Source of the DNA: a virus
Strand: one strand, 5' to 3'
DNA length: 27,496 nt
Virus record (IMG/VR): IMGVR_UViG_3300027777_000125
Location: 1 to 27,496 of that record
The notes beneath the pieces were generated by a model that was not told the origin of the DNA, did no database searches, and saw only the letters and a program-made list of their open reading frames with translations. Shown here piece after piece: positions 3,313 through 22,028 of the stretch (positions within the stretch are counted from its first letter, which is position 1; each line of letters begins with the position of its first letter). A program made the position numbers and the translations under genes.

Positions 3313-5076
3313 ATGGTAGATTCTAATAGAGAAAGTACATTTGGAAGGGAGTTAATGAAGTATGTATCTTCTAAACTCCCTTATCAATCTTATGATATAA
3401 ACGATAAGATCAAAACTCTTAATCCAAAATATGAAAACTTTTTCGGTAAGGGTACTGATAGAATAGGTGCATTAATACGACAATCAGTTTCATCATCGAT
3501 TTCGATGACTGATGATCAGTACGCCAGTATTCTACAGAATAAAGATTATCATGATTTCATGTACGCAAATATACAGCCGGATAAAGGTCGCCGGCTTATG
3601 GATTACCGCGTCATGTCAGCATACTCAGAAGTTGCTGATGCTTTAGATGAGATTTGTGATGAGTTTGTCAATAAAGATGAGCATGGTGAAATAGTAAAAC
3701 TTAATTTTGTTGATTCAGGATTATCAGAATCACAAAAGGCAAAAATCAAAAAAGAATTTCAAAAGTATATTGGTTACTTTGATTTAGAGCATAAAGGATG
3801 GGAGTACGTTCGTCAGATGCTTGTTGACGCAGAAATTTATTGGGAACATATTATTCACAAAGATCATACTAAAGAAGGCATTCTTGGCGTAGTTTCAATT
3901 CCTTCAGATGTAATCGATCCTGTATTTGAAAATGTACAGAACATGATTGTAAAGGGCTACCTCTTAAGAAAGCCTATTTATGATGCTAAAAATCCTGGTA
4001 AGATTGCAAGAACAGAGCTTGTACCGATGGATATCAATCAAGTTACCTATGTTAACTCTGGTATTTGGAATGAAAATAAAAATCTAAGACTACCATTCAT
4101 TGAAAATGCAAGACGTGCCTATCGTCAATTAAGCTTAATCGAAGATTCAATTGTTATCTACCGCTTAGTACGGGCCCCAGAACGTCTTGTATTTAACGTT
4201 GATGTTGGTAATATGCCTCCACCAAAGGCTGAAGCTTACCTTCGTAAGCTTATGACCAACTATTGGTCAAAGCGGACGTATGATGCTAATCAAGGAGCTA
4301 CCGTACAAAAGTTTAATCCGCAATCCATGCTTGATAGCTTTTGGTTCGCTAAACGTGCAGGCTCTGAAGGTACATCGGTAACACAACTTGCCGGTGGTGC
4401 AAACCTCGGTGAGTTAACCGATCTTATGTACTTTGTAAAGAAGCTATATAAGTCTCTTAAGGTACCTTCAACGCGTCTTAATCCTGATGATCCCTATAAG
4501 GACGGTGCTGATATTTTACGTGAAGAGCTAAAATTCGCACGGTTCGTTATCCGTCAGCAACAACGCTTTGCTTCAGGCTTAAAAAACGGTTTCATTACAC
4601 ACCTTAAATTAAAAGGAATTTATAATGAGATGAAGCTCAAAGAGCCACACATCGATCTTACCTTTAATGTACCAACAAATTTCTACGAATTAAGGGAAAA
4701 TCAAAAGTTTCAACTTAAAGCTGAGAATTTTAATAGTATTACTCAGAGTGATTTTGTATCAAAAACATATGCTCAGAAAAAATATCTTGGTTGGTCAGAT
4801 TCTGAAGTTATGGCAAACCGTGAATTCTTACGTAAGGATAAAGAGCTTATGTGGGAATTGGCACAAATTGAAAATACTGGACCTGATTGGCGTGAAGCTG
4901 GTTCGCTTGCTGCACCTGGTGGTGGTGCACCTGTCGGGGGTGGCGCACCAGGTGGTGGAGGTACTCCTCCTGCTTTTGGACCAGCTCCAACTGGTGGTGA
5001 AGAAGCACCGCCTGAAGGGGGAGCCGCTCCTGAAGCTGGAGCTGCAGCTCCTGCCGCTGAGGCACCTCCTGCTTAA
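3313..5076 (+). CDS. 20: Portal vertex protein, gp20-like
   Basis: 587 residues (T4 gp20 has 524). Recognised by MDYRVMSAYSEVADALDEIC in the N-terminal third, by YRLVRAPERLVFNVDVGNMP, by the downstream KLMTNYWSKRTYDANQGATV, and by VPSTRLNPDDPYKDGADILR near residue 400, all typical of T4-like portals. Portals form the dodecameric DNA-entry ring at one capsid vertex, nucleate prohead assembly and bind the terminase and neck. The C-terminal 60 or so residues are an unusual Gly/Pro/Ala/Glu low-complexity tail beyond the T4 length (see findings). The gene is followed by gp13- and gp4-like genes, not directly by the prohead core genes as in T4. Confidence 0.93.
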   Translation: MVDSNRESTFGRELMKYVSSKLPYQSYDINDKIKTLNPKYENFFGKGTDRIGALIRQSVSSSISMTDDQYASILQNKDYHDFMYANIQPDKGRRLMDYRVMSAYSEVADALDEICDEFVNKDEHGEIVKLNFVDSGLSESQKAKIKKEFQKYIGYFDLEHKGWEYVRQMLVDAEIYWEHIIHKDHTKEGILGVVSIPSDVIDPVFENVQNMIVKGYLLRKPIYDAKNPGKIARTELVPMDINQVTYVNSGIWNENKNLRLPFIENARRAYRQLSLIEDSIVIYRLVRAPERLVFNVDVGNMPPPKAEAYLRKLMTNYWSKRTYDANQGATVQKFNPQSMLDSFWFAKRAGSEGTSVTQLAGGANLGELTDLMYFVKKLYKSLKVPSTRLNPDDPYKDGADILREELKFARFVIRQQQRFASGLKNGFITHLKLKGIYNEMKLKEPHIDLTFNVPTNFYELRENQKFQLKAENFNSITQSDFVSKTYAQKKYLGWSDSEVMANREFLRKDKELMWELAQIENTGPDWREAGSLAAPGGGAPVGGGAPGGGGTPPAFGPAPTGGEEAPPEGGAAPEAGAAAPAAEAPPA

Positions 5077-5082
5077 TAAATA
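5076..5082 (+). promoter_or_regulatory. Late-type promoter box ATAAATA
   Basis: ATAAATA directly follows the portal stop codon and ends 5 nt before the gp13-like ATG; no Shine-Dalgarno sequence is present. Confidence 0.6.
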
Positions 5083-5087
5083 ATGTT

Positions 5088-6170
5088 ATGGATTGTTCCG
5101 CCATAACACCGATATCTGCTTTTCAGAGCACAAACTTAACAAGTAGAATTAATACTTTTAGTAGACTAGGAGACCGTATTACACGAGCTCTTGGCGCGCC
5201 AATGGTTAATATTGAAATACATCAAGACCAGTTATTTGAATTTATATCACAAGCTTGTGAGTTGTTTACAAAATACGCTGGCTATACAGAAGAGTATTTG
5301 GTGTTTAATTCAAATTTATATGTTGACGGTGTTGGTATTAAGCTTGATGACTTGTTTAGTATAACACCCGAATTCTCACGTGTCAATCCTCCGATTGCAT
5401 CAACTGTCTATGCTGCGACTTCTACAATACCCGCTGGTGTGTTTAGTACATCTACGACTCTTTCAAGTTATTTTGGCACTGGTATTTTTCAAAATCAATT
5501 GTTAACAACAACAGATTATCTTAGCGTATTAAATTTTAATAGTACACTAACTCAATACTTCAATCAATCAACAACAAGTCAAATAAAAACAGTTAATAAT
5601 TTTGACTACGATACAATGGATTATAGAAAAGTTGTTGAAATTTATAATTTTGAAGAAGGTACATCCGATGGTGTTAATTCGCTATTCACAATTGAACAAA
5701 CTCTAGCACAACAAACATATTTTAGTTACGCAATGGGTAATTATGGTTTTGATCTTATTAGTTGGTATACGTTGAAAAACTGGCTCGAAGTAAGAGATAA
5801 GCTGTTAGCCACAAGACGTTCATTTACATTTGACCCTCGTACGCAAATTCTTAATTTCTATCCGCCACCGCACATCTCTGGCTCTAGTAGTCATTTCTGG
5901 GGAACAGTTGCTTGTTATGTAGAAAGACCTTTAAGAGATGTTATTAAAGAACCCTGGGTGTATCAATACGCTTTAGCTTTAACAAAGATTGCAATCGGTA
6001 ATGTAAGAGGAAAATACACTGGTACCACTCTATTCGGCGGTGGATCAATAAATGGATCTGATTTCAAATCAGAAGGACTTGAAGAGAAAAAAGCACTAGA
6101 AGATCAACTCTTTACCGGTGCATCTCCAGGCTTTGGAGATGCCATGCCTCCAATGTTCTTTATTGGATAA
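5088..6170 (+). CDS. 13: Neck protein, gp13-like
   Basis: 360 residues (T4 gp13 about 309). The N-terminal ITRALGAPMVNIEIHQDQLF matches the R-R-L-G-A-P-x-x-N-V-E-x-T-x-x-Q signature of T4 gp13. The C-terminal third (KEPWVYQYALALTKIAIGNV, a G-x-T-L-x-G-G-G turn and the final FFIG) matches the gp13 end with its W-x-x-x-Y-A-x-A-L helix. In T4 gp13 and gp14 form the neck that closes the filled head and accepts the tail. The insertion of about 50 residues relative to T4 falls in the Ser/Thr-rich middle. Its ATG follows a late-type box by 5 nt. Confidence 0.8.
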   Translation: MDCSAITPISAFQSTNLTSRINTFSRLGDRITRALGAPMVNIEIHQDQLFEFISQACELFTKYAGYTEEYLVFNSNLYVDGVGIKLDDLFSITPEFSRVNPPIASTVYAATSTIPAGVFSTSTTLSSYFGTGIFQNQLLTTTDYLSVLNFNSTLTQYFNQSTTSQIKTVNNFDYDTMDYRKVVEIYNFEEGTSDGVNSLFTIEQTLAQQTYFSYAMGNYGFDLISWYTLKNWLEVRDKLLATRRSFTFDPRTQILNFYPPPHISGSSSHFWGTVACYVERPLRDVIKEPWVYQYALALTKIAIGNVRGKYTGTTLFGGGSINGSDFKSEGLEEKKALEDQLFTGASPGFGDAMPPMFFIG

Positions 6171-8629: not shown

Positions 8630-10162
8630 ATGTCAAAATCAATCCGTCCTTCACAGTCCTACATCGATGAGAGAAGCGCAAAGACATTGCTTGAGAAGTG
8701 GAATCCAGTATTGGATTACACATCCAACAACGTTCGCGCGATTGAAGATGATCACACCCGTTTAAACACTGCTATCCTCCTTGAGAACCAAGAGAAGTGG
8801 TGCTTTGAGGCAAATAATTCCTCAAACGGCGGCGTTTTCGGTACCAACAATGGTACTGCAAACGGTGCATACGGCAACCAGTTCCCATCACAGAACGACA
8901 GTGCCTATGCATCAAGTGATGCTCGTCTTCCAAAGATCCTCATTCCGATGATCAGACGTACATTCCCTGAGCTTATCACTAACGAAATCGTTGGTGTTCA
9001 GCCTATGAGTGGTCCAGTCGGTCTTGCTTTTGCTCTCCGTTATAAGTACGAACCTACATCCCTTGGTTACGGTGGTGCATCAAACACCACAGGTCTCGAC
9101 GCTTCCGGTACTACACAGTACGCAGGTGGCGCCGCACTTTCAGCTAACCCTGAATTAGGTTATCAGTACCTCAACACAGCCTTCACCGGTGCATCTTCAC
9201 AGTATCTCTCCGGTGCAACAGGTTTCTTCCCAATGCAGCCACAAGATCAAGGTGTTGCAGCACTTCTCAGCCAGTTTGAGTTGTCCAGCAATATTCCTCA
9301 GATCGTTGTTTCATTCGAGAAGACAGCAGTTGAAGCCGGCACACGCCGTCTTGCAGCTCGTTGGTCCGTTGAGTTGGAACAGGATCTTAAGAACATGAAC
9401 GGTATCGATATCGATACTGAGCTCACAAACGCTATGTCGTATGAGCTTCAGGCCGAAATCGACCGTGAAATGATCATTCGTATGATCCAAACAGCCCTCA
9501 ATGCCGGTTTCGGCGTTGGGTTCTCTGTATGGAATCCTGCTTCAGCCGATGGTCGCTGGCTCGTTGAGCGTAATCGTGACTTCTATCAGAGACTCATCGT
9601 TGAGGCTAATCGTATTGCCGTACGTAACCGCCGTGGTTCCGCTAACTTCATTGTTGGTACACCTCGCGTTTGCGCTATCCTAGAGATGCTCCCTGAATTC
9701 CAGTGGGCACCTGTACAGGGTTCAGTCAATACACAGCCCGTCGGTGTTGCAAAAGTAGGCTCATTAGCTGGTCGCTTCAATGTTTACCGTGACACACGTA
9801 CAGAGGCTCAGTTCGAAGCAAACGCTGGTGGTAACTTCTCTGGTAACAACCAGGCAGGTTATAATACCAACTATGCTGGTGGCGGTTTCCCAACCGGCCA
9901 AACTCGTACTGCACGTCTCGACTACGCACTCCTTGGTTACAAGGGGCCTGAGTTCTATGACACTGGTATCATCTACTGTCCTTACATCCCTGTAATGGTT
10001 CAGCGTACCATTGGTCCTAACGATTTCTCACCACGTGTTGGTCTATTAACCCGTTATGGCGTTGTAGATAACATCTTCGGTGCGAATCTTTATTACCACG
10101 TCATCGTTCTTCAGGGTCTCAGTACAGCATTTACGCCTGCTACTCAGTCTGTTTACTTCTAA
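8630..10162 (+). CDS. 23: Major capsid protein, gp23-like
   Basis: 510 residues (T4 gp23 has 521). Hallmarks include the N-terminal LLEKWNPVLD and LENQEKW, PKILIPMIRRTFPELITNEI, VGVQPMSGPVGLAFALRYKY, the SVELEQDLKNMNGIDIDTEL region with its following L-x-x-E-I-D-R-E helix, and YKGPEFYDTGIIYCPYIPVM near the end. It builds the HK97-fold hexamers of the head. The prosegment is probably removed by gp21 near E60|A61, though P3 is Cys instead of Leu/Ile. Codon choice is visibly more C-ending than in its neighbours, as expected for the most abundant protein. The leader is longer than for other genes and A-rich, without a clear Shine-Dalgarno sequence. Confidence 0.96.
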   Translation: MSKSIRPSQSYIDERSAKTLLEKWNPVLDYTSNNVRAIEDDHTRLNTAILLENQEKWCFEANNSSNGGVFGTNNGTANGAYGNQFPSQNDSAYASSDARLPKILIPMIRRTFPELITNEIVGVQPMSGPVGLAFALRYKYEPTSLGYGGASNTTGLDASGTTQYAGGAALSANPELGYQYLNTAFTGASSQYLSGATGFFPMQPQDQGVAALLSQFELSSNIPQIVVSFEKTAVEAGTRRLAARWSVELEQDLKNMNGIDIDTELTNAMSYELQAEIDREMIIRMIQTALNAGFGVGFSVWNPASADGRWLVERNRDFYQRLIVEANRIAVRNRRGSANFIVGTPRVCAILEMLPEFQWAPVQGSVNTQPVGVAKVGSLAGRFNVYRDTRTEAQFEANAGGNFSGNNQAGYNTNYAGGGFPTGQTRTARLDYALLGYKGPEFYDTGIIYCPYIPVMVQRTIGPNDFSPRVGLLTRYGVVDNIFGANLYYHVIVLQGLSTAFTPATQSVYF

Positions 10163-10866: not shown

Positions 10867-11784
10867 TTATTGACCCATTGCCTTCTCTGTATAATGATTA
10901 GTATCACCAAGAATATGCGGGAGGAGATGTCTACTACTAGCTCTAGTCGGATTAATATCTAACGAACCACGACGTGAATAAAGAAGCGTAACAACACAAT
11001 CTTGTACTTCTGCATGAGCCATAATACTTGTAAAAAGCTTCTCGGCACAAAATTCATGAAACTCATTAACCTCACGAAGAGCGACAATTTGTTTAAAGAG
11101 TGATTCAGGCTTTACACGCATGCCATTCTTTGTAATAATATGAATATAAGCAGCACCTGTATCCTTCTGCTTTGTATGACGGCAACGTGACCGTAAAGCG
11201 TTAGTAAAAAACTTATCACTAACCGAAGCATGATCTTCAGGATGAATTTTATAAAACTCTAAATGATCCTGCTGAGCTGAATAATCAGTAATTGTAATTT
11301 GCGACGCAGTATCAGCAAGCACAGTGTACAGGTCCTGATAGTCTCTTAGCGGAAAGAGACCTGAAGATTCTGATGGAAAGAATTTGACTTTGACAGGTTT
11401 ACCAATTGCATTAGTAAGGTCGGTAGTAATTTGATTCTCATAATTATAGATAGCCTCTTTTAACGTTTCACCCATCTTACACATATCAAAAGAGTTCATA
11501 TAAAGCTTAGCAGACTTTGACTCTACCATAAACTCTGAATCCGATGGATAAACAAACTTAATAGTACCAGCGACAGGATAACCGTTATTAAGAAGAAACG
11601 TAGCTTCATGACAATGCCATGTATCAAACCCTACAAATTCATCGCCATTAATACCCCACCCTTCACGGGCAAGAATTCTAGGCATAGGATTAAGAAGTGA
11701 CGGGTCAAACTGCTCTGTATAAATAGCATACGATGCAGATGAACCAAGAGTCTTAGAAGCAATATCAGTTAGGTTTGTTGACAT
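10867..11784 (-). CDS. queF: QueF: NADPH-dependent 7-cyano-7-deazaguanine (preQ0) reductase
   Basis: 305 residues, the bimodular (E. coli-type, 282-residue) form. The QueF signature ESKSAKLY is at 88-95, followed by MNSF. The catalytic cysteine is C201 with D208 seven residues later, the same spacing as E. coli C190 and D197. NEFHE (H243, E244) and YSRRGSLDINP complete the active-site and substrate motifs. The enzyme reduces the nitrile of preQ0 to the aminomethyl of preQ1. It is the last gene of a five-gene minus-strand operon and overlaps the kinase gene by 16 nt. Next to a DpdA-like gene it most likely supplies preQ1 for insertion into DNA; normal tRNA queuosine synthesis is the alternative. 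Confidence 0.93.
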   Translation of the reverse strand: MSTNLTDIASKTLGSSASYAIYTEQFDPSLLNPMPRILAREGWGINGDEFVGFDTWHCHEATFLLNNGYPVAGTIKFVYPSDSEFMVESKSAKLYMNSFDMCKMGETLKEAIYNYENQITTDLTNAIGKPVKVKFFPSESSGLFPLRDYQDLYTVLADTASQITITDYSAQQDHLEFYKIHPEDHASVSDKFFTNALRSRCRHTKQKDTGAAYIHIITKNGMRVKPESLFKQIVALREVNEFHEFCAEKLFTSIMAHAEVQDCVVTLLYSRRGSLDINPTRASSRHLLPHILGDTNHYTEKAMGQ

Positions 11785-12326
11785 AATACTAGTTTAATAG
11801 CTTCCATTCGTTCTTCAACTGTTCCTTTTAATCTGACCAATTTATTTTGTAATAAATCATTATACGAAACTATAGCTTGTTCAAACGTCTCTATCATTTT
11901 ATTTCTAAACTCTATATCAGTACTTCTTTCACCATCGTCAGCAAGAGCTACATCAGAAGGATCAGTATAAAAGATAACATCATACTGAGTAATAAGTCTC
12001 TTAAACACATTCTTAGTATAATCAAATACCCACTTTGGTACACTACCCTCTAGATGCAAATAACCTGTATAACACAAACCATCTAAGATACAACGATCAA
12101 GTATCACACTCTTCTCTCTATACCGCAATACATTTTCAATATGCTTATTAGTAATAAGACATTGAGTTAATCCTGTACCCTCCTCATTAATCGGTACATT
12201 AAATTCACGCTTTACTAATCTCGTTACCTCATCTACAAACTCAAATCGATCGCTATAAATCTCCTTACAAGCCTTTAGTAATGTAGTCTTACCTGAGCTC
12301 TGTACACCTGAAAAGCTAATAATCAT
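11769..12326 (-). CDS. P-loop nucleoside/nucleotide kinase-like ATPase
   Basis: 185 residues. The N terminus has FSGVQSSGKTT, a Walker A motif in the GxxxSGKT form used by kinases of the thymidylate-kinase/NadR-like (AAA_28) class. VILDRCILDG is a DRx-type acceptor region, and FYTDPSD with the later DDGERSTD fits the Walker B strand and lid. It is preceded by TATAAT with exactly six bases before ATG, so it may also be transcribed separately. In the base-modification operon it could phosphorylate a modified or precursor nucleoside, but DpdA acts on polymer DNA and needs no kinase. The substrate is therefore unknown. Confidence 0.7.
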   Translation of the reverse strand: MIISFSGVQSSGKTTLLKACKEIYSDRFEFVDEVTRLVKREFNVPINEEGTGLTQCLITNKHIENVLRYREKSVILDRCILDGLCYTGYLHLEGSVPKWVFDYTKNVFKRLITQYDVIFYTDPSDVALADDGERSTDIEFRNKMIETFEQAIVSYNDLLQNKLVRLKGTVEERMEAIKLVLCQQT

Positions 12327-12332
12327 ATAACT

Positions 12333-12338
12333 ATTATA
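12333..12338 (-). promoter_or_regulatory. TATAAT box, 6 nt before the kinase ATG
   Basis: On the minus strand TATAAT is followed by AGTTAT and the ATG at 12326. It falls just inside the short gap after the Nmad1 gene plus its first downstream bases, and may be an internal operon promoter. Confidence 0.45.
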
Positions 12339-12341
12339 TTA

Positions 12342-12689
12342 CTACTTCGCCCACTTGCCACGATTAACAATCTCAGCAATAATGCTATAAACGGAAATAT
12401 CAAGAAAAGCGTCAAAGACAGATTCGTTTGCCGACTCTAAACTATTCTTTCTAAGAACAAGATTAATCAAGCGTTGAAGTTTATCATTAAGTCGAACAAC
12501 AATAGCAGAGATCGATGCTTTCCTCTCCTCAGCTGTATTCAGTGAAGAACCTAATGAGATATTACCAGGTCCATAATCAAATTGTTTCTTACAAAAAGTA
12601 AGATAATGATCGTGCTGAATCTTTTTAAATTCAGCACAAGTGGCGGGATACTGGGTTTCAATTGCTGTTACTATTTTATCTATGCTCAT
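12342..12689 (-). CDS. DUF1599 / nucleotide-modification-associated domain 1 (Nmad1) protein
   Basis: 115 residues from the chosen ATG (MSIDK). The open frame extends to an ATG at 12725, but that would overlap the formyltransferase gene by 50 nt; the internal start reduces this to 14 nt. KQFDYGPGNI (D38, Y39, G40), a VRLNDKLQRLINL helix (R66, D69, K70, R73) and ESVFDAFLDISVYSII (E89, D93, D97, Y101) match the DUF1599/Nmad1 pattern of Asp- and Arg-rich helices. The family was named for its recurrence beside phage and bacterial DNA-base modification genes; its reaction is not known to me. The context here supports a role in nucleotide supply or base modification. Confidence 0.7.
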   Translation of the reverse strand: MSIDKIVTAIETQYPATCAEFKKIQHDHYLTFCKKQFDYGPGNISLGSSLNTAEERKASISAIVVRLNDKLQRLINLVLRKNSLESANESVFDAFLDISVYSIIAEIVNRGKWAK

Positions 12690-13233
12690 AAGTCTCAAAA
12701 AATTTGTACCACATAATACTCGCAAGCGAGTGTAATTGATCTATAACCTCTTCCTCATTTAGTCCAGGTATATTAATAGCATGTGATGATATAATTTCAC
12801 CCTCATCAACTTCAGGTATGACCCGATGTATAACAGCGCCAGCTGTTTTATGTCCTAATTGTACAGCACGAACCTGCGGATCCTTGCCTTTAAGCTCCGG
12901 GTATTCAGTTATAAGACCAGGATGAAGATTATAGATATTCTTATACTTCTTACAAATCTCTTTTGGTATTATTCTAAGATAACCATGCAATGTAATAAGA
13001 GGATTTTTATATGGCTTTAAGACTTTTTTATAATCCTTTAGCTCAGGATTCCTAGGCAATACATGCCACTTAAGACCAGCATCTTTTAATTCTTTAAGAT
13101 ACGGATTTAACCCTTCATCATTCTGTCTATTTGTAATAACAATAGCAGGTATCTTGTTTGTCTGGTAAATGATATTGCTTATTTCAGAGCCAGAGCGACT
13201 AAAAAAAGCTATCCAAGTTGTATCTATCGGCAT
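12676..13233 (-). CDS. Formyltransferase of the PurN/GART fold, putative preQ1-base formylase
   Basis: 185 residues, like single-domain PurN (about 212). SGSEISNII (14-22) corresponds to the PurN phosphate-loop region. LHGYLRIIP is the V-L-A-G-Y-M-R-I-L strand. The catalytic triad is present: N102 and H104 in YNLHPG, and D143 in EVDEGEII. It should therefore transfer formyl from 10-formyl-tetrahydrofolate to an amine. It overlaps dpdA by 10 nt and lies with queF. The primary amine of preQ1 is a natural acceptor, so formylation of preQ1 in DNA is more likely than purine synthesis. The acceptor is inference; the fold is well supported. Confidence 0.85.
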   Translation of the reverse strand: MPIDTTWIAFFSRSGSEISNIIYQTNKIPAIVITNRQNDEGLNPYLKELKDAGLKWHVLPRNPELKDYKKVLKPYKNPLITLHGYLRIIPKEICKKYKNIYNLHPGLITEYPELKGKDPQVRAVQLGHKTAGAVIHRVIPEVDEGEIISSHAINIPGLNEEEVIDQLHSLASIMWYKFFETYEHR

Positions 13234-14042
13234 AAAATCTTCTTAAACATTTTAGTATTATAATCTATAATATCCATCTCATCTTTTGTAACTTGATGAT
13301 CGATTAAATCTGCAAGCTTAGTTGATGGTTTAATAGGAAGACCATAATCAGCATCATACTGCATTCCATGTAATGCTGCGACAATTGGATTACTCGTATC
13401 ACAACTCACAATATTAAAGATATTATGACTTACATAATATCTAAACTCTCTAGCTAAAGAACATCCAAGAAGATGATGTGGCTTATCCCAATTCCAAATA
13501 CCCTTATCAATAAGCTGAGAGATAAAACGCTGACGACCTGAACACCATTTATCAAGCTTTGTATATCCTTCACCAGTAGACTCATAGTACGAAAAATCAA
13601 AACTAATAGCAATCATATCTGCATGATCAGACATAAATTTATAACAATCAATAAGCTCCTGCCAGGTCTTCCCCTGTACAGCGCCAATAGCTTTAGTAAA
13701 ACATGCATCCTTAATTTGTGTAATCTTATCCTCCGCAATCCAATTCACAAAACTACGTCTTGTTTCGTTACTATCTTCAAGAACATCAGGTACGATGAAC
13801 ATATTCGGCTTAAGATCAATAGCCGCTTTGAGAAACTTATCACTATCAAAAGCATGGCCGAGTTCAAAAATTGAATTATCTAAAAGTACCTCACGATTAT
13901 AAATTTCACGAGCCCTCTTAAAATACTCATAATATTTTGGATGCGATTCAAAGAGATGTACTAGTGCGTAATCAAAATCATTATAAAGCGTAGAGGTCTG
14001 AAGAATCGAGATAGGAGATTCGTGTGATACTTTAATTAGCAT
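13224..14042 (-). CDS. dpdA: DpdA-like DNA 7-deazaguanine transglycosylase
   Basis: 272 residues, a TIM-barrel TGT relative of phage DpdA type. LLDNSIFELG (D55) corresponds to the TGT TDSGGFQ strand, FIVPDVLED to the P-D substrate loop, GAVQGK (120-125) to GIVQGG, LLGCSL to the L-G-V-G strand and IVSCDTSNP (D215) to the segment carrying the TGT nucleophile. DpdA proteins swap guanine in DNA for a 7-deazaguanine base such as preQ0 or preQ1. It heads the minus-strand operon, overlaps the formyltransferase gene by 10 nt and has TATAAT six bases upstream. Compared with bacterial Tgt it lacks the C-terminal zinc-binding cysteines, as expected for phage DpdA. Confidence 0.8.
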   Translation of the reverse strand: MLIKVSHESPISILQTSTLYNDFDYALVHLFESHPKYYEYFKRAREIYNREVLLDNSIFELGHAFDSDKFLKAAIDLKPNMFIVPDVLEDSNETRRSFVNWIAEDKITQIKDACFTKAIGAVQGKTWQELIDCYKFMSDHADMIAISFDFSYYESTGEGYTKLDKWCSGRQRFISQLIDKGIWNWDKPHHLLGCSLAREFRYYVSHNIFNIVSCDTSNPIVAALHGMQYDADYGLPIKPSTKLADLIDHQVTKDEMDIIDYNTKMFKKILCR

Positions 14043-14078: not shown

Positions 14079-17006
14079 ATGGAATATCCAAAATATTTTG
14101 GCAATTACATGGGCATCGTTGTACAGAACAACGATCCACTATATCGTGGTAGAGTTAAGGTATTTGTTCCGCATATATCTCCTTCAGTATATAAAAATTG
14201 GATTGAAAACAGCGATCAAAAACCTGCTGTTGATAGAATTTTTAGATTTATTGGTACTAATGTAGGTAGTGATTTAACAAATATTTTAGAAGATTTAAAA
14301 TTAATACTTCCATGGGCTGAAATAGCGTCGCCTATTACAGGTGAATCTAGTTCCGGAAGATTTCATGCAGCATCAAAGAAAGCTACAACAAGTGATGGTA
14401 GCAATTTTACTTATTTGTTTAGTAGTAGCGCTGGATCTGAATCAAAATATAAACAAAACGCTGATAACATTGCTGAAAAACCAGGTCATATCTATGATAT
14501 GTCGACAGTTAACTTAAGTGACGCATTTAATAACCCACAATTGACAAACGTTAACAATGTCAATAAGCTAAGCTATAACTATACACCAGAGTGTTATAGT
14601 AATAGTGGCAAGGGATCATTTGCTGTACCAAATGTAGGCTCACATGTATGGGTATTTTTTAACGCCGGTGACCCATTACACCCTGTTGTATTCAGCGTAT
14701 CACATGGTGCATCAGAATGGAGTAGTATTTTTGACGCAGCAAAAGGTCAACCAGGCTTAGATTATCCCGGTGAATGGGAAAATAGTGCGATAAGTTCCAA
14801 TACAATTAATTCTGAAACATATCGTAACAAATATGTTATTAATCAAAAAGGCGGTACGATTGCTTTTGTTAATACTGATAATAGAGAAATTTTAAAACTC
14901 ACACACTACTCAGGCTCGTTTAAGGAATTTAATAATCAAGCTAATATTGAATTAGCTGCTAATAATGATCAGAAACTTGTATTAGGTGATATGTTTGAAA
15001 CCATTAGAGGCACGCGTAATGAGTTTACTCAACGTGACTTTGATTGTGTTATAGCAGGTGATCATTATCGTAAAGTCGGAGACTTAAATGTAGCTCTCTA
15101 TCAGAAATGGAAGTCATTAATGGATCCAATTGCTGATATTAAGCAGTTATTTGATATTCAGCGAACATCAGGCGCTGTTGACGATGTTACTAAATTAATA
15201 AAACTCAACGGTACGGGTCAAACAAAGTCTGGTAACCCTGCATTATGTCCAGTTTGCGCAGGTGGAGCTACAACAATGGCGATCAATAATTCATTCGCAC
15301 CTGGCTACAGAGTATATGCTAACGTTGGACATACAAGTGTTGTAAATGGTGATTCCGTTGGTACACAGAATTTATTCGGCCTACCACAATGGGGACGTGG
15401 TTCAGATATACCCGGTACAGGATTTGTTGGTAGCTTTCTTACCGGTCTTTTACAGGTGTTCGGAGCTAGTATACCAAAGGCAATTACAGCTAGTCTCCCT
15501 CTAATTGGCCACGATGGTTCAACTCTACAGAATAGACCAGGCTATCCTGCAGGGCATAATTGCCCGGCTTGCGGTGGTACAGGTATGAGTCCGAGCTCAT
15601 TTAATGGTGTGTGGTTACCTGAACCTAAGAAATTAACACTACCATTACAGCTAGCTACAGTTATACCTCAGCTTGCAAAAATTGAAGCTCAAATGGGTCA
15701 AGGTGGTTCTGAAATTATTGAAATTACCAAACACAAGGTTGAAACTATTGGCACGGTAATGAATGATTGGGGCGCTATAAGAGTTGATCCTAAAGGCAAA
15801 ATGGAACCGGCATATGTACAGGTACATCCAGGCGCTACGCTTACAATACGTAAGCCTTCACCTCTTATTGAACAAGTTCATGTAGATGATTTACCGGGTG
15901 GTACATATTCACTCAACGTCTGTAATAGATATAATGTTCTAGTAGGTGCTGGTGGTTTAAATCTCAAGTCCTACGGTGTTGTTAATGTATCTGGTGCTAT
16001 TACAAACATCGCTGGTGAGCAAGTAAATGTTGGTAGTGCTAACGAGGTTAACATTGATGGTGGTAAGCGCTTGTCTCTTGTAGGTGACATTGTACATATT
16101 AAACAGCGTAATAATGAGCAGATTGTACTCGATAGTGATGTTGGTATTACAGGAAAGTTAATCGTTAAGGGTGGTGTTTATATTGAGGGTAATCTAGCAG
16201 CACAAAGCACTGATACACCGCAACATAAAAAGCAAACCGATCCTATCGTAGTGTCAGGTAGTCCGACAGCAGATCAATGTACTGGAGTTAGTATGCCTGT
16301 TGATACTGCAGGACATGTAATAGATCCTATAACAAGAGAATTAACACCTTCATACGGTGCTGGTGTACCTGTTCATATGGGGTATACAGATCAAGGTAGA
16401 TATACTGGCTTTGTACCAAAAGCAACAATTACAGGCTTTATGCCTGTAACATTTACTGCTACTGTTGTAGGTTTAGTTGACTCAAACGGCGGTGCTGTTA
16501 CCGGTAAAGGTGTATTTACTGTACTCGGTGCTGTACCTACTCCAATGCCTAGTGCGCCAATTTTAACACCAACTGGCTTTTGCGTGGCAGGTACAGGTCC
16601 GATTGGTGTTACAGGTACATTACAACATACACCAGGTTACGTACCGCCAACCGTTCCTACAGCCTCGCCAGTGCCAATGGATATTACTTCGCAGGTTACT
16701 CTTCGCGGATTACCGCCTCTTGAAGTAGCAAAGTTAGTTGCAGCTGCGAAAGGTTCTGTACAAGGAGTTGGTGCTATACCATTCCCGGTTATGAATCTCG
16801 GTGTTGGTGCGCACGCTGATAGTCACGTTATGGCAAAGCACTCTCATAGTCATGATGAAGGTGAAGTTGGTTCGCACGCTGCCATACGTCAAATAGGTAT
16901 GGGTAGTATGGCAGCTCTTGAAAATGATGATTTCTCTGCTCCTAAGACGGTTAATTCACTCGGTACAAACCTAGTGTTACAAGCATTACAATTACCGACC
17001 TCTTAA
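14079..17006 (+). CDS. 5: Baseplate hub/central spike protein, gp5-like, without a lysozyme domain
   Basis: 975 residues. The start YFGNYMGIVVQNNDPLYRGR then VKVFVPHIS, with ILPWAEIASPITG and GSHVWVFFNAGDPLHPVVF, is the OB-fold of T4 gp5/VgrG proteins. INQKGGTIAFVNTDNREILK and ELAANNDQKLVLGD, then GTRNEFTQRDF, are beta-helix strands of the spike. I see no T4-lysozyme-like domain, which T4 gp5 carries between these parts. Two cysteine pairs (CPVC, and CPACGGTG of DnaJ zinc-finger style) lie about 110 residues apart in the middle, and the C terminus is His-rich (HADSHVMAKHSHSHDEGE). It probably forms the membrane-piercing needle. It is divergent from the dpdA operon and convergent with a 58-residue gene. 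Confidence 0.85.
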   Translation: MEYPKYFGNYMGIVVQNNDPLYRGRVKVFVPHISPSVYKNWIENSDQKPAVDRIFRFIGTNVGSDLTNILEDLKLILPWAEIASPITGESSSGRFHAASKKATTSDGSNFTYLFSSSAGSESKYKQNADNIAEKPGHIYDMSTVNLSDAFNNPQLTNVNNVNKLSYNYTPECYSNSGKGSFAVPNVGSHVWVFFNAGDPLHPVVFSVSHGASEWSSIFDAAKGQPGLDYPGEWENSAISSNTINSETYRNKYVINQKGGTIAFVNTDNREILKLTHYSGSFKEFNNQANIELAANNDQKLVLGDMFETIRGTRNEFTQRDFDCVIAGDHYRKVGDLNVALYQKWKSLMDPIADIKQLFDIQRTSGAVDDVTKLIKLNGTGQTKSGNPALCPVCAGGATTMAINNSFAPGYRVYANVGHTSVVNGDSVGTQNLFGLPQWGRGSDIPGTGFVGSFLTGLLQVFGASIPKAITASLPLIGHDGSTLQNRPGYPAGHNCPACGGTGMSPSSFNGVWLPEPKKLTLPLQLATVIPQLAKIEAQMGQGGSEIIEITKHKVETIGTVMNDWGAIRVDPKGKMEPAYVQVHPGATLTIRKPSPLIEQVHVDDLPGGTYSLNVCNRYNVLVGAGGLNLKSYGVVNVSGAITNIAGEQVNVGSANEVNIDGGKRLSLVGDIVHIKQRNNEQIVLDSDVGITGKLIVKGGVYIEGNLAAQSTDTPQHKKQTDPIVVSGSPTADQCTGVSMPVDTAGHVIDPITRELTPSYGAGVPVHMGYTDQGRYTGFVPKATITGFMPVTFTATVVGLVDSNGGAVTGKGVFTVLGAVPTPMPSAPILTPTGFCVAGTGPIGVTGTLQHTPGYVPPTVPTASPVPMDITSQVTLRGLPPLEVAKLVAAAKGSVQGVGAIPFPVMNLGVGAHADSHVMAKHSHSHDEGEVGSHAAIRQIGMGSMAALENDDFSAPKTVNSLGTNLVLQALQLPTS

Positions 17007-17173: not shown

Positions 17174-17180
17174 TATTTAA
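17174..17180 (-). promoter_or_regulatory. Late-type promoter box TTAAATA
   Basis: On the minus strand TTAAATA then TCTAT then ATG at 17168. It overlaps the stop codon of the upstream minus-strand gene. Confidence 0.5.
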
Positions 17181-17716
17181 TCAAATCTTGGATAAATTGA
17201 TTCGTTACAAAAAATGTATATGGTAAAACAACTAAAAGATTGAAAAAACGGGATACTATTATCAAAAGCATCATTATAGAGCTTTTCTAATGACCAATTT
17301 TCATTAGAAACTTTATTAATACAGCTACCGTCAATCGGGTAAACACCTTTACGAAGATAGGCATAGCTATCGTTACACGTTAAATTGAATTTTGTTAATA
17401 ATTTTTTATACTCATCAACATTAATATCACTCTTTAGTGACGTGTTGAGTGATTGTAATTGTTTAATTAAAGGTAATAGTTGTGCGTTAACTTGTAATTT
17501 TATACCTCTAAAGCAAACTGGCGACGCCTCTGAAGTTGGCAATAAATGAATTACGTCTTTTACTTTGTATTTTGACTTTATTTTAATTCTTTCCTGATCG
17601 TAGGAATTTTTTAATTGAAACCCAAATAGACAATACGGATATTCGTTTTCAGGTATTACATAAAAATTATCCAGCTGAAGCGGCTCAGCTATATTGTCTA
17701 CATCAACTAATGTCAT
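17177..17716 (-). CDS. Hypothetical protein
   Basis: 179 residues from MTLVDVDN. An ATG 18 nt further upstream (17734) is possible, but the inner ATG is preceded by TATAAT at exactly six bases, as in other genes here. The sequence has no family I recognise. It contains an RIKIKSKYKVKDVIHLLP strand/helix pair and a Cys- and Phe-rich end (PFFQSFSCFTIYIFC) that could be a short hydrophobic patch but is too polar-flanked for a certain membrane anchor. It is followed directly by the 58-residue gene. Confidence 0.6.
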   Translation of the reverse strand: MTLVDVDNIAEPLQLDNFYVIPENEYPYCLFGFQLKNSYDQERIKIKSKYKVKDVIHLLPTSEASPVCFRGIKLQVNAQLLPLIKQLQSLNTSLKSDINVDEYKKLLTKFNLTCNDSYAYLRKGVYPIDGSCINKVSNENWSLEKLYNDAFDNSIPFFQSFSCFTIYIFCNESIYPRFD

Positions 17717-17722
17717 ACTAGC

Positions 17723-17728
17723 ATTATA
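17723..17728 (-). promoter_or_regulatory. TATAAT box, 6 nt before the ATG at 17716
   Basis: The minus strand reads TATAAT-GCTAGT-ATG, nearly the same as the sequence before the phosphoribosyltransferase gene (TATAAT-GCTTGC-ATG). Confidence 0.45.
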
Positions 17729-17759
17729 TAACATTGCTGTTATAAATCTACTTTTTTTA

Positions 17760-18149
17760 CTAGTGAGCTGCTGCTATCAAGTGATTGATTAAAAGTGCAC
17801 CAAATGTTGTGACTGTTGCAATAGTCGCTGCAATTAGATTTGCTTTTAATTGATGTTTACCAGCAGTGTGTACTTTCTCTGTTTCGAACTCACGTGAGAT
17901 TTGATACGAGATATGATTAAAACGTTCATTTACAATTTCTGTAATATTATCAAACTTTAAAGACATCTCCGTCTCCATCGTCTTGAAGCTTGTATCTAAC
18001 TTATCCTCAAGTGATGTTAATCTATGCTCTATACTCGTAATTTGATTAACAATAGACGGTCGACCATTACCTTGATACACGGTTTTGTAGAGGTGTTCTA
18101 CTTCTAATTTTAAACTAGCTAATTCAGTTATTTTAGATGCAGCAGACAT
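17760..18149 (-). CDS. Coiled-coil protein with C-terminal membrane anchor (XhlA/holin-accessory-like)
   Basis: 129 residues. Residues 10-95 are a long helical/coiled-coil region (IEHRLTSLEDKLDTSFKTME then MSLKFDNITEIVNERF). Residues about 104-128 (LIAATIATVTTFGALLINHL) are a single transmembrane helix at the very C terminus. This architecture resembles XhlA-type haemolysin/holin-accessory proteins and other tail-anchored phage lysis or exclusion proteins. No lysis genes are adjacent, so lysis is only one option; an inner-membrane superinfection protein is another. Confidence 0.6.
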   Translation of the reverse strand: MSAASKITELASLKLEVEHLYKTVYQGNGRPSIVNQITSIEHRLTSLEDKLDTSFKTMETEMSLKFDNITEIVNERFNHISYQISREFETEKVHTAGKHQLKANLIAATIATVTTFGALLINHLIAAAH

Positions 18150-18169
18150 AAGACAATAAAAACTTACAA

Positions 18170-18403
18170 TTATTTAATCTGAAAAGAATAAGAAAGAATA
18201 CCCTTCGGTAAAGAATATACTTTACCCTGCATTTTTCCTTGATTATCTTTAACTACAACAGTTAACTTATCTTGTGTTATAACAGGTCCATTAACAATCT
18301 CTACATTACCGAGATTAATCTTATAACTTGTAATACCATTTGTTACATCGAATACAGATAACATATTTTTACCTGACGCAACAGCTGAATATATCTTTGC
18401 CAT
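18170..18403 (-). CDS. Small hypothetical protein (77 residues)
   Basis: 77 residues from MAKIYSAV. The frame stays open much further (to 18652), but that part lies opposite the fibre gene. The MAKIY ATG is preceded by ATAAATA with a 5-nt gap, the standard spacing here, so the short form is called. It appears beta-rich (NMLSVFDVTNGITSYKINLG; KLTVVVKDNQGKMQGKVYSL). Function unknown. Confidence 0.65.
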   Translation of the reverse strand: MAKIYSAVASGKNMLSVFDVTNGITSYKINLGNVEIVNGPVITQDKLTVVVKDNQGKMQGKVYSLPKGILSYSFQIK

Positions 18404-18408
18404 AATAG

Positions 18409-18415
18409 TATTTAT
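18409..18415 (-). promoter_or_regulatory. Late-type promoter box ATAAATA
   Basis: On the minus strand ATAAATA-CTATT-ATG. It decides the start of the 77-residue gene. Confidence 0.55.
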
Positions 18416-18442
18416 GAAGCTATGGTAATTTATGTTAATATG

Positions 18443-18449
18443 ATAAATA
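18443..18449 (+). promoter_or_regulatory. Late-type promoter box ATAAATA for the fibre gene
   Basis: ATAAATA ends 15 nt before the fibre ATG at 18465, so a very short leader is expected. Confidence 0.5.
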
Positions 18450-18464
18450 ATTTGGTATAACGAT

Positions 18465-20282
18465 ATGGCTAATAATATCACTAAGATCTTATTTCGACAG
18501 GGTACAAATGTACAAAGAATAAGTGCAACCTCTACAAATCCAAATCCTGGTGTTATTTTTAATGCTGGTGAACCTGCGTATACATACGATACGAAAAGAT
18601 TATTTGTCGGCGATGGTGTAACATATGGTGGTACACCTGTTGGTATAGTCAATTATGGCTCAATATTAGCACTCTCCGGTTCTTACTCAAATAGTAATCT
18701 TACACAAGCCGCTTATCAACTATTAAGCGCAGCTCTTGTAGGTGATCTCGTATATGATCAAGCCTCATCAACACTATACACACTCACAGCAGCAAGCTTT
18801 ACACCGAATCTTTCTAATCTTATACCTTATAATATTTCCGTAAAATTTAATACATCACAATTTACTAATCCTAGTAACACTCTAACTATTAAAACCGGTG
18901 GTGTAACGTCAACAGAAATTAACAGTACCGCATTAAATTCATCGCAAAATATTCTTACTGGTGGTAACGGCTCTCAAATTGGTTTACGACCAGGTAGTAT
19001 TGGTAATGCTTACATTGCTGTTGGACCGTCAAATAGTATTAAAGTTACAAACAGCACGGGTACGGCAATTCAAGATGTGCAAATAGCACCCGGTCAAGTA
19101 GTAGGCTATTCATCTGCTACTGGTGGTTCGTTTGGAGCCGTAACGCTTGCTGCAGGCACCGGTCTTACACTGAGTGCTAATCCAACAACATATCAATTTA
19201 ATTTTAGCAATCCTGGCTTGTTACCTGCAAGCGGTGGTATATTAACTGGTAATTTAAGTGCTACCGGTGGTGTGAAATTCATTACCTCTACATCACCTGT
19301 TAATCCTTACGATGTTGTAAATCTGACATTTTTACAATCTGCTACAGGAACAGGCTTACCAATCAATATTGCTGCGCTTGCGAATTACCTGCCATTATCT
19401 GGTAACAGTACATTAACAGGGCCGATTACTTCAAAGATTTCTGTATCGAATTCTGCACCTGCAATAACACTACAACAGGTAAACGGTACAGTATTACAGG
19501 TTCTCAATAACCTCAACGTATCGCAATTTAATCTCAACTACGACGGTAGTGTTAGTACAACTAGTACTGTTACAGCTAATAAAGTAATAGTACAAGCAGC
19601 GCCAGTCAATGCATACGATTTAACAAATAAGACATATACTGACGATAAATATATTCCTTTTACTGGTGGTAATTTAACTGGTAATTTAAATGCTCTTTCA
19701 CCATATAAGTTCACTACGAGTACAACACCTACAAACTCAAATGATGTTGTTAATCTAACGTACTTAAAGGCAGTAACAGCAGCTTTACCAACACCGGCCG
19801 GTGCTCAGGTTTTATCATTTAATCAAAATACAGCACAGCTTACAATATCTAATGGTAACACGGTTAGTCTTTCAGCTTTAAGCGGTAGCGGTGGAGGCGG
19901 ATCTGGTACAGTACTTACAGCATCTAATGCTGGTACAGGTACAGGTGTGTATTATAGCGGTGGTTCTACAACAAGTAATTTAGCGTTTAAATCTTTAAGC
20001 GCAGGTACAGGCATAAGCATTAGAGATAATAGTAGTGGTACTGTAACAGTTGATAATACAAACGCATTTAACCCAGTCTATACAGGATTAACTGGTAACG
20101 GTACAACAACTCTCTTTACCCTTAACGGCGGAACAACAACAAATGCTGCAGCTTATAGAGTAGATTTAAATGGTGTGTTACAAGCACCAACAGTCGATTA
20201 CACAATACCAACAGCAGGTAATATATCATTTACTAAAGCTCCATACACCGGTGCTGCGATAACAGTTGTTTCATACTTCTAA
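18465..20282 (+). CDS. Tail fibre/virion appendage protein with repeats
   Basis: 605 residues, Ser/Thr/Asn/Gly-rich. The N-terminal 60 residues (ITKILFRQGTNVQR, then GEPAYTYDTKRLFVGDGVTY) match the short beta domain with an L-F-x-G-D-G-x-T-x-G-G motif found at the start of many phage fibres and Mtd-like proteins. Two clear copies and one degenerate copy of a fibre repeat follow: GGILTGNLSATGGVKF plus NPYDVVNLTFL; GGNLTGNLNALSPYKF plus NSNDVVNLTYL; and NKVIVQAAPVNAYDLTNKTY. A flexible SGSGGGGSG stretch precedes the C-terminal domain. It probably contributes to host recognition. It is followed 5 nt later by the collar-domain gene. Confidence 0.8.
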   Translation: MANNITKILFRQGTNVQRISATSTNPNPGVIFNAGEPAYTYDTKRLFVGDGVTYGGTPVGIVNYGSILALSGSYSNSNLTQAAYQLLSAALVGDLVYDQASSTLYTLTAASFTPNLSNLIPYNISVKFNTSQFTNPSNTLTIKTGGVTSTEINSTALNSSQNILTGGNGSQIGLRPGSIGNAYIAVGPSNSIKVTNSTGTAIQDVQIAPGQVVGYSSATGGSFGAVTLAAGTGLTLSANPTTYQFNFSNPGLLPASGGILTGNLSATGGVKFITSTSPVNPYDVVNLTFLQSATGTGLPINIAALANYLPLSGNSTLTGPITSKISVSNSAPAITLQQVNGTVLQVLNNLNVSQFNLNYDGSVSTTSTVTANKVIVQAAPVNAYDLTNKTYTDDKYIPFTGGNLTGNLNALSPYKFTTSTTPTNSNDVVNLTYLKAVTAALPTPAGAQVLSFNQNTAQLTISNGNTVSLSALSGSGGGGSGTVLTASNAGTGTGVYYSGGSTTSNLAFKSLSAGTGISIRDNSSGTVTVDNTNAFNPVYTGLTGNGTTTLFTLNGGTTTNAAAYRVDLNGVLQAPTVDYTIPTAGNISFTKAPYTGAAITVVSYF

Positions 20283-21378: not shown

Positions 21379-21613
21379 TGATGAAATAAATCGACTATTA
21401 GAGGATTTTAATATCTCCCCGCAATATCAAAATGCCTCTAATAATGGCCCTGATATAGGCACAACAAGAGGTGATATTAACGGTTCATTTCCTTCTAAGC
21501 AAGAAAAGCTAAGCGGAAAAATCTTACCTACTAAAAAAGATATTAAAAAACTAAAACGTAAAAAATTTATTCCCAAGGAAAAACCACCCAGGATTCGTTT
21601 GGAAATTCGGTAA
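21368..21613 (+). CDS. Small basic hypothetical protein
   Basis: 81 residues. It overlaps the preceding gene by 11 nt and the convergent phosphoribosyltransferase gene by 47 nt. It has a Lys-rich C-terminal half (KKDIKKLKRKKFIPKEKPP). The N terminus MKFNDEINRLLE|D holds an L-x-E site near residue 12, like the capsid-targeting N termini discussed in the findings. A small basic protein of this kind could be packaged with DNA. This is inference; no family is recognised. Confidence 0.55.
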   Translation: MKFNDEINRLLEDFNISPQYQNASNNGPDIGTTRGDINGSFPSKQEKLSGKILPTKKDIKKLKRKKFIPKEKPPRIRLEIR

Positions 21614-22028
21614 CGTAATAGTCAGGTACAAACGTAGTATGTGGCTTGGTATAGAGAGTAGCAAACCTTAGATTGTTAAGGCCATAGTTTTCAATTAATT
21701 CGTGTTTAATGTACTCCAATGTACTACCACCATCTGAGATATCATCTACAACGAGCACTTTATGCTCACGGTGCTTTACTGTTAGGCTATAACCTGGCTC
21801 TTGAATTGAAATAATAAAGCCTGACTTTACATTTTTTTCATTATAGGTTTGTACAGAAAAATTATGTATAATCTTAACATCAAGACGATAGGCAAGAAGA
21901 GTACCAGGTATCATTCCACCTCTACCAATAGTCACAACAACATCAGGTATAAATTCATCTGCTCGAAGAAGTTCTTCTAGACATGTAACTCCATAAAAAA
22001 TATCTGACCACGACAGATCTTTGTTCAT
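21567..22028 (-). CDS. Purine phosphoribosyltransferase (Gpt/xanthine-guanine type)
   Basis: 153 residues, the length of E. coli Gpt (152). VVTIGRGGMIPGTLLAYRL is the substrate/hood strand and KVLVVDDISDGGSTL (90-104) is the PRPP-binding motif with the two acidic residues. The closing WVVFPWE is the end typical of xanthine-guanine phosphoribosyltransferases. It should convert a 6-oxopurine base plus PRPP to the nucleotide. It lies about 7.5 kb from the 7-deazaguanine operon; purine salvage for DNA synthesis is the simple role. The start is supported by TATAAT six bases upstream. Confidence 0.85.
   Translation of the reverse strand: MNKDLSWSDIFYGVTCLEELLRADEFIPDVVVTIGRGGMIPGTLLAYRLDVKIIHNFSVQTYNEKNVKSGFIISIQEPGYSLTVKHREHKVLVVDDISDGGSTLEYIKHELIENYGLNNLRFATLYTKPHTTFVPDYYVTEFPNESWVVFPWE

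Follow-up and report, generated by a model that had tools for sequence, protein, structure and literature searches.

A phage operon predicted to make formylated 7-deazaguanine DNA, with a possible guanine-recycling arm

Does the phage whose DNA is analysed here rebuild the guanines of its own genome? The question is raised by five minus-strand genes at positions 10867-14042 of the 27,496-nucleotide stretch under study (the window), which encode DpdA, a PurN-type formyltransferase, a small helical protein, a P-loop kinase and QueF. The original prediction placed this compact operon between head and baseplate genes, and its open reading frames, spacings and flanks were all reproduced. The flanks are the major head protein (8630-10162) and a T4-type baseplate hub (14079-17006). 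The spacings from dpdA to queF are an overlap of 10 nt, an overlap of 14 nt, a gap of 15 nt and an overlap of 16 nt if the ATG at 12689 is used for the third gene. The longest open reading frame of that gene starts with a TTG at 12725, which was rejected as the start codon in favour of the ATG at 12689 common to the homologues. The features discussed are as follows.

10867..11784, minus strand: bimodular QueF, 305 aa (Pfam, profile match, catalytic residues)
11769..12326, minus strand: P-loop kinase of the AAA_28 / thymidylate-kinase / NadR-kinase group, 185 aa (Pfam, profile matches)
12342..12689, minus strand: small all-alpha protein, 115 aa, tentatively Nmad1/DUF1599-related (conserved start, sub-cut-off DUF1599 match)
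12676..13233, minus strand: PurN-type formyltransferase, 185 aa (Pfam, profile match, triad)
13224..14042, minus strand: predicted short DpdA-type DNA guanine transglycosylase, 272 aa (AlphaFold2 model, Foldseek, annotated relatives)
21567..22028, minus strand: xanthine-guanine-type phosphoribosyltransferase, 153 aa (Pfam, best NCBIfam match)

Protein families, the fold, conserved catalytic residues, gene order and co-occurrence were computed. From these we infer the substrates, the order of the steps, the extent of replacement, the protection and the roles of the kinase, the phosphoribosyltransferase and the helical protein. The T4-type phage would make preQ0 via FolE-QueD-QueE-QueC, and QueF would reduce it to preQ1. 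The short DpdA would swap preQ1 for guanine in the phage DNA, and the PurN-like enzyme would formylate the aminomethyl group to give 2'-deoxy-7-(formylamino)methyl-7-deazaguanine. Replacement may reach most or all guanines; shielding from restriction would follow, and the formylated 7-deazaguanine DNA would probably act as an armour against restriction enzymes. The released guanine would most likely be returned to the GTP/dGTP pool by the kinase with the phosphoribosyltransferase. The whole scheme of preQ1 exchange, formylation and salvage is considered likely. Its core, the insertion of preQ1-derived bases by DpdA and their subsequent tailoring, had already been proposed in the original prediction and is well supported by the TGT/DpdA fold, the complete bimodular QueF, the preQ0 pathway of relatives and the cultured relatives with 7-deazaguanine DNA or the full gene set.

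The AlphaFold2 model of the 272-aa protein (pLDDT 92) found tRNA-guanine transglycosylases as its top five Foldseek matches (E 1.5e-7 to 2.5e-6) and the DpdA structure 7ui4 at rank 10. Judged by this model, the protein has the TGT-type TIM-barrel fold and is a member of the TGT/DpdA superfamily, in agreement with the family originally proposed for it. The two Asp residues noticed earlier at the TGT active-site positions, D55 and D215, are invariant across 21 homologues and also conserved in the phages immuto, CP220 and MaInes. Matched to TGT through motif, order and strand end, without superposition, they are expected to occupy the general-base and nucleophile positions. The motifs around them (FLDSGAF and SCDSS) are similar to those of phage 9g DpdA (LLDNSIF and SCDTS). 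The TGT-like fold is common to the window DpdA and the 9g and bacterial DpdA proteins of the dG+/dPreQ0 systems, although the latter show no significant sequence match to it and replace just part of dG. No relative of the protein was found among solved structures by sequence, profiles included, and comparing its profile with those of E. coli TGT and 9g DpdA gave nothing significant. The family call therefore rests on the fold, the motifs and the annotated relatives, to which the protein is 45% (immuto DpdA) and 44-45% (CP220/CPt10 homologues) identical; the latter value hints at possible membership in the DpdA3 subfamily. A cysteine cluster resembling the zinc site of tRNA TGT was not found in the 21 homologues, in which C133 is the sole invariant cysteine, and the protein was therefore not classed as a tRNA TGT. 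In CP220 and CPt10 (Firehammervirus), 100% of dG is replaced by dADG (PMC8306585). By analogy with these relatives, the window DpdA is predicted to exchange guanine in DNA, and the dG of the window phage may therefore be fully replaced, too.

QueF matches both Pfam modules (QueF_N 1.7e-23, QueF 1.7e-9), and its profile finds a solved bimodular QueF at 2.2e-69. The catalytic set listed in the original prediction was found complete: C201, D208, H243, E244 and E88-S89-K90 are unchanged in 16 homologues. The protein is thus a full-length bimodular QueF with a complete active site and ESK motif, and a predicted preQ0 to preQ1 reductase, scoring under the TIGR03138 equivalog cut-off (183 vs 293 bits). 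The preceding enzymes FolE, QueD and QueC, with a weak match for QueE, are carried by long contigs of close relatives; none of the FolE-QueD-QueE-QueC genes is in the 27 kb fragment, in which QueD was sought and is absent.

The formyltransferase belongs to Pfam Formyl_trans_N (6.9e-17), its profile matches a solved PurN (4.6e-16), and the Asn-His-Asp triad ascribed to it earlier (N102, H104, D143) is invariant in 20 homologues. By sequence it is a 10-formyl-THF formyltransferase of the PurN type with an intact triad, scoring far under the PurN equivalog cut-off (57 vs 150 bits) and sharing 43% identity with the immuto gene that adjoins dpdA. The gene context points to a preQ1 or dPreQ1 N-formyltransferase (the DpdN role). 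Formyl-preQ1 DNA (fdPreQ1) and the formyltransferase DpdN were reportedly described by Cui et al. 2023, whose DpdA3 system is said to have the same DpdA type, formyltransferase role and predicted end product as the window. To our knowledge, no kinase, helical protein or phosphoribosyltransferase was assigned in that system. The window QueF, formyltransferase and phosphoribosyltransferase share catalytic residues or best curated matches with bacterial QueF, PurN and xanthine phosphoribosyltransferase, but all three fall under the NCBIfam equivalog cut-offs, as diverged phage forms.

The five genes recur in this order in many phage contigs of IMG/VR, far above chance. Among 87 related loci with at least 4.5 kb of downstream sequence and DpdA proteins mutually <90% identical, 45 have the complete order. 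The formyltransferase gene lies directly between dpdA and the remaining genes in 65/87, whereas 18/87 have DpdA, kinase and QueF without it. The helical protein is absent in 41 of the loci, and the kinase adjoins DpdA in 85 of them, the distant CP220 and immuto included. A bacterial origin was rejected, with just four MAG contigs matched in a one-genome-per-species collection. The original view that the cassette is undescribed could not be upheld: the Flavobacterium phage immuto (vB_FspM_immuto 2-6A, 3-5A, 13-6C) likewise carries the annotated genes dpdA, formyltransferase, kinase and queF, four of the five in the same order, on one strand and with 32-45% protein identity. Only the helical protein, whose Nmad1-like gene is missing from the immuto cluster, looks undescribed. 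The immuto cluster is located beside replication genes and not between head and baseplate genes. It also has FolE, QueD and QueE near by, with a phosphoribosyltransferase between QueE and FolE, unlike the window fragment with its lack of preQ0 genes. In CP220/CPt10 the kinase directly follows DpdA as in the window, but neither QueF nor the formyltransferase is beside dpdA, a phosphoribosyltransferase homologue was searched for in CP220 and not detected, and the DNA ends up with the amide dADG (PMC8306585) instead of the formyl-preQ1 predicted here.

The kinase is assigned to Pfam AAA_28 (2.1e-13; 51.3 bits vs a cut-off of 27), and its profile also matches thymidylate kinase (3.9e-6), deoxynucleoside kinase and NadR kinase. 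With the P-loop residues G12-K13-T15 invariant among its homologues, it is a nucleotide-kinase-like protein of the thymidylate/AAA_28 type. Its matches among cultured phages come nearly all from DpdA-bearing phage groups. In CP220 it is retained beside DpdA even though QueF and the formyltransferase do not adjoin. The kinase accompanies DpdA whatever the side chain, a possibly new point, and it would serve the exchange and not the side chain. Strict linkage is ruled out by exceptions in both directions: two loci (L039/L043) have this DpdA type without a recognised kinase near by, and two others (L418/L425) have a kinase at the same site without this DpdA type. A metallophosphoesterase-kinase-QueF arrangement occupies the site in L431/L435.

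The phosphoribosyltransferase gene is located 7.5 kb from dpdA and had not been linked to the operon in the original prediction. The protein matches Pfam Pribosyltran (PF00156; 1.9e-20; 73 bits vs 26), residues D95-D96 are invariant in the family, and the best NCBIfam match is xanthine phosphoribosyltransferase (2.2e-22; 79 bits, under the equivalog cut-off of 138). Since this cut-off is not reached, the xanthine-guanine-type base is only its presumed substrate. The family was detected in 18/18 checked contigs bearing this DpdA type. Several unrelated cultured phages pair the enzyme with preQ0 genes, and in MaInes it is a neighbour of dNMP kinase, ribonucleotide reductase and FolE. In the lineage defined by the capsid, it is present in 16/23 records with DpdA and 0/16 without, with p = 6.5e-6 being overstated because many DpdA-negative records stop just past the capsid gene. 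The longer records gave 9/9 DpdA records of at least 30 kb against 0/4 negatives (p = 0.0014; 0/2 gives 0.018), the four negatives having been chosen post hoc for more sequence beyond the capsid, with one of only 16 kb and two (L424, L439) without a baseplate gene within 8 kb and hence not strictly matched; related contigs are, moreover, not independent of each other. The query of the record-level search was taken from phages with this DpdA, which biases the closest matches to such phages; in several long contigs with the phosphoribosyltransferase (e.g. 69, 67, 71, 47 kb) neither DpdA nor QueD was found. The co-occurrence with this DpdA is possibly new. The phosphoribosyltransferase and the kinase may recycle the guanine released by DpdA, and we tentatively suggest a dedicated recycling arm in 7-deazaguanine phages: the expelled guanine would be converted to GMP by the phosphoribosyltransferase, the kinase would phosphorylate it and GTP, the preQ0 precursor, would be refilled. 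Such a closed guanine loop would permit near-complete replacement. Salvage is opposed by the 7.5 kb that separate the window phosphoribosyltransferase gene from the operon, by the failure to detect a homologue in CP220 and by the relatives that have a kinase but not this DpdA type.

The kinase, the helical protein and the phosphoribosyltransferase could also be general nucleotide-metabolism genes of this phage lineage with no role in modification, a possible but doubtful reading. It is consistent with the kinase paralogue adjoining dUTPase and topoisomerase in the Campylobacter phage CC_R7, the loci that keep the kinase without this DpdA and the frequent absence of the helical protein, and hard to reconcile with the kinase in nearly all 87 loci, the near confinement of its cultured-phage matches to DpdA-bearing groups and the recurrent pairing of the phosphoribosyltransferase with preQ0 genes. 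The constant partnership of kinase and DpdA and the full replacement in CP220 would be explained as well if a 7-deazaguanine deoxynucleotide were already formed ahead of replication. Its source would be the transglycosylase, with a nucleotide as substrate, or the phosphoribosyltransferase, with the modified base as substrate; the kinase would then phosphorylate it and the polymerase would incorporate it. The MaInes neighbourhood fits this route, which we nevertheless regard as improbable. The 6-oxopurine phosphoribosyltransferases require the N7 atom that 7-deazaguanines lack, and a search of infected Campylobacter reportedly showed no dADG nucleotide pool. Moreover, DNA is regarded as the substrate of DpdA-type enzymes (PMC6884629).

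The end product may differ from that proposed if dPreQ1 DNA is final and the formyltransferase does other work, e.g. PurN-type purine synthesis during infection. PurN enzymes are its nearest solved relatives, PurN-like genes occur in phages, and the 18 loci without the gene make dPreQ1 a plausible end product in relatives; the overlap with dpdA, the prevailing position between dpdA and the other genes and the low score on the PurN equivalog nevertheless make this explanation unlikely for the window. That the tRNA of host or phage is modified via the queuosine pathway is very improbable. QueF and the products of the preQ0 genes do serve queuosine synthesis, and the top fold match is a tRNA-guanine transglycosylase, but the zinc-type cysteine cluster is missing, cultured DpdA relatives were found in phages with modified DNA and the queuosine pathway has no step for a formyltransferase.

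The DpdA type known from phages whose dG is completely replaced turns out to be widespread among environmental T4-type phages. The near-constant DpdA-kinase pair combined with interchangeable tailoring genes would make the end product predictable from gene content, queF alone predicting preQ1 and queF plus the formyltransferase predicting formyl-preQ1. The recycling arm, if true, would allow a large share of guanine to be swapped without draining the nucleotide pool and would give the kinase a testable job.

The third gene had originally been named Nmad1. The gene itself was confirmed, whereas the name is weak: the DUF1599 (Nmad1) match (E = 0.016-0.02; 16.0 bits) falls below the Pfam curated cut-off of 25; the weak match recurs in 16/22 family members. 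A role as a MazG-like dGTP hydrolase was rejected for want of fold support, with no MazG among the best fold matches listed. The model of residues 7-115 reached pLDDT 86.5, and the PDB fold search with this model, in which residues 1-6 are missing, gave no match at E <= 0.001. The protein is matched by phrog_1485, a family of unknown function, at 8e-12.

The window, an IMG/VR virus record, comes from a T4-type phage and has recognisable genes for portal, major head protein, tail sheath stabiliser and baseplate hub. Five packed minus-strand genes lie between the head gene and the baseplate hub; neighbours overlap by 10, 14 and 16 nt or, in one case, are 15 nt apart, exactly the layout and position of the original prediction.

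8630-10162, major head protein, one flank of the cassette
10867-11784, minus strand, QueF
11769-12326, minus strand, kinase
12342-12689, minus strand, small helical protein
12676-13233, minus strand, formyltransferase
13224-14042, minus strand, DpdA
14079-17006, baseplate hub, other flank of the cassette
21567-22028, same strand as the cassette, phosphoribosyltransferase of 153 aa (best curated match xanthine phosphoribosyltransferase, under the equivalog cut-off)

Judged from its sequences, this is a real and well-conserved cassette for a predicted 7-deazaguanine in DNA. A search of solved structures by sequence gave no match to the 272-aa DpdA; its predicted structure (pLDDT 92) was matched best by tRNA-guanine transglycosylases (TGT), with the DNA preQ0 insertase DpdA at rank 10, and its relative in Flavobacterium phage immuto is annotated as DpdA. 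The residues D55, D86, Q123 and D215 are conserved in the family and, by motif and order, appear to match the residues of TGT that act in catalysis and bind the base, which agrees with the placement of the D55/D215 pair proposed earlier. Unlike tRNA TGT, which has a cysteine cluster, the window DpdA lacks a conserved one. Matches among 50,697 phage records were confined to CP220-type Campylobacter phages, immuto and one weaker match. The family is large in viral contigs (at least 542 confirmed candidates), and only four MAG contigs matched in a bacterial and archaeal genome collection.

We compared 87 loci with DpdA proteins less than 90% identical to one another and at least 4.5 kb downstream. 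With L197 added to the counts, DpdA was accompanied by the kinase in 85 of them and by QueF in 83; 65 had the formyltransferase, 46 the helical protein, and 45 all five genes. QueF is bimodular with intact catalytic residues, and the N-H-D triad of the PurN-type formyltransferase is invariant. With the TGT/DpdA-like fold and the conserved gene order, this largely supports the proposal that the DNA would contain tailored, preQ1-derived bases. The name Nmad1 for the third gene is weak: the DUF1599/Nmad1 match of this small helical protein falls under the Pfam cut-off, and its model (six N-terminal residues missing) matched no solved fold. The cassette's supposed novelty was mostly not borne out, since immuto has dpdA, formyltransferase, kinase and queF in the same order, with FolE, QueD and QueE just upstream. 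The cassette is thus a variant of an already known type of system. In 2023, Cui et al. reportedly described formyl-preQ1 in DNA together with the formyltransferase DpdN, and a subfamily, DpdA3, that permits complete replacement.

Because QueD has no match within the 27,496-base window, we infer the preQ0 pathway of this phage from relatives with DpdA up to 93% identical. FolE, QueD and QueC were found in three long cassette-bearing contigs, where the QueE genes match weakly. In the most economical reading, FolE, QueD, QueE and QueC would produce preQ0, QueF would reduce it to preQ1, DpdA would exchange preQ1 into DNA, and N-formylation would take place on the free base or in DNA.

The kinase is a member of Pfam AAA_28, with thymidylate, deoxynucleoside and NadR-type kinases as distant relatives. 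In phages CP220 and CPt10, dADG replaces 100% of dG (PMC8306585). CP220 has dpdA followed by the kinase, with neither QueF nor the formyltransferase beside dpdA. No other gene accompanies DpdA as constantly as the kinase, and CP220 keeps it despite having a different side chain; the kinase therefore more likely serves base exchange than the side chain. Two loci with window-type DpdA (L039, L043) have no recognised kinase near by; in these and in L032 a phosphoribosyltransferase lies 3-4 kb downstream of dpdA. Campylobacter phage CC_R7 (L280), in which no match to window-type DpdA was detected, carries a paralogue of the kinase (4986-5522) beside topoisomerase II and dUTPase genes.

Base exchange must free one guanine per site, and its salvage to GMP and onward would be an obvious use for the phosphoribosyltransferase. 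The 6-oxopurine phosphoribosyltransferases depend on N7 of the base, so preQ1 would be spared. All 18 checked contigs with window-type DpdA contain a member of this enzyme family, and homologues in cultured phages are rare (7 and 15 of 50,697 records with two queries). Short or unannotated records aside, these form four groups: immuto, Cellulophaga phiST, Brevundimonas MaInes/StAshley and Synechococcus BUCT-ZZ01. FolE, QueD and QueE are annotated in all examined members (immuto, MaInes, BUCT-ZZ01, StAshley, phiST; phi13:1 was covered just around the phosphoribosyltransferase gene and phi19:2 left out). In MaInes, StAshley, immuto and BUCT-ZZ01 the gene is located within the preQ0 gene set or close by, and in phiST about 20 kb away. 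Remote relatives of the window DpdA occur in phiST, MaInes and StAshley (E 4e-15 to 4e-9); none was found in the 40 kb of BUCT-ZZ01 that the search covered, and a 12-kb stretch of the unannotated scaffold MT835497 showed no preQ0 gene. Several divergent contigs have QueD, QueE, the phosphoribosyltransferase and a relative of the kinase one after another. In six (L325, L326, L328, L330, L331, L344) the relative grouped with these genes is larger than the cassette kinase, and window-type DpdA is mostly absent from the stretch examined. However, no copy of the phosphoribosyltransferase was detected in CP220, the window gene and the operon are 7.5 kb apart, the gene occurs in some long contigs without DpdA or QueD, and the lineage control covered few contigs, was post hoc and is in part confounded by where contigs end, all of which count against salvage. 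We propose that the enzyme, paired with the cassette kinase, may recycle the guanine that DpdA releases, and this proposed pair is the new element worth testing.

At the head-baseplate site, DpdA, kinase and QueF occur without the formyltransferase in 18 of the 87 loci; other relatives have there just a kinase, or a set of metallophosphoesterase, kinase and QueF that lacks window-type DpdA. This variety makes the site look like a place where modification genes are exchanged. Two loci (L431, 9369-11588; L435, 8073-10296) with a calcineurin-like metallophosphoesterase, kinase and QueF and no recognised DpdA possibly carry a different modification or restriction-evasion set. Eight contigs (L382, L396, L413, L417, L421, L422, L423, L436) end within about 1.5 kb past the head gene, where the cassette would start; differences between strains, or DNA that is difficult at the cassette, may be the cause. 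The major head protein gene of L027 (13922-15442) is apparently in two pieces about 540 bases apart, for which an intron, insertion or frameshift might account.

Elsewhere in the window, three minus-strand ORFs without family matches (17177-18652) lie between the baseplate and tail-fibre genes. The plus-strand tail-fibre-like protein (18465-20282) weakly matches the major tropism determinant N-terminal domain (2.2e-5, just under the cut-off). At 25101-27086 on the minus strand, a membrane protein resembling DUF401/citrate transporters (Pfam 3.8e-12; phrog_14035 4e-72) is encoded beside an outer-membrane beta-barrel-like protein (1e-4), an unusual find in a phage.
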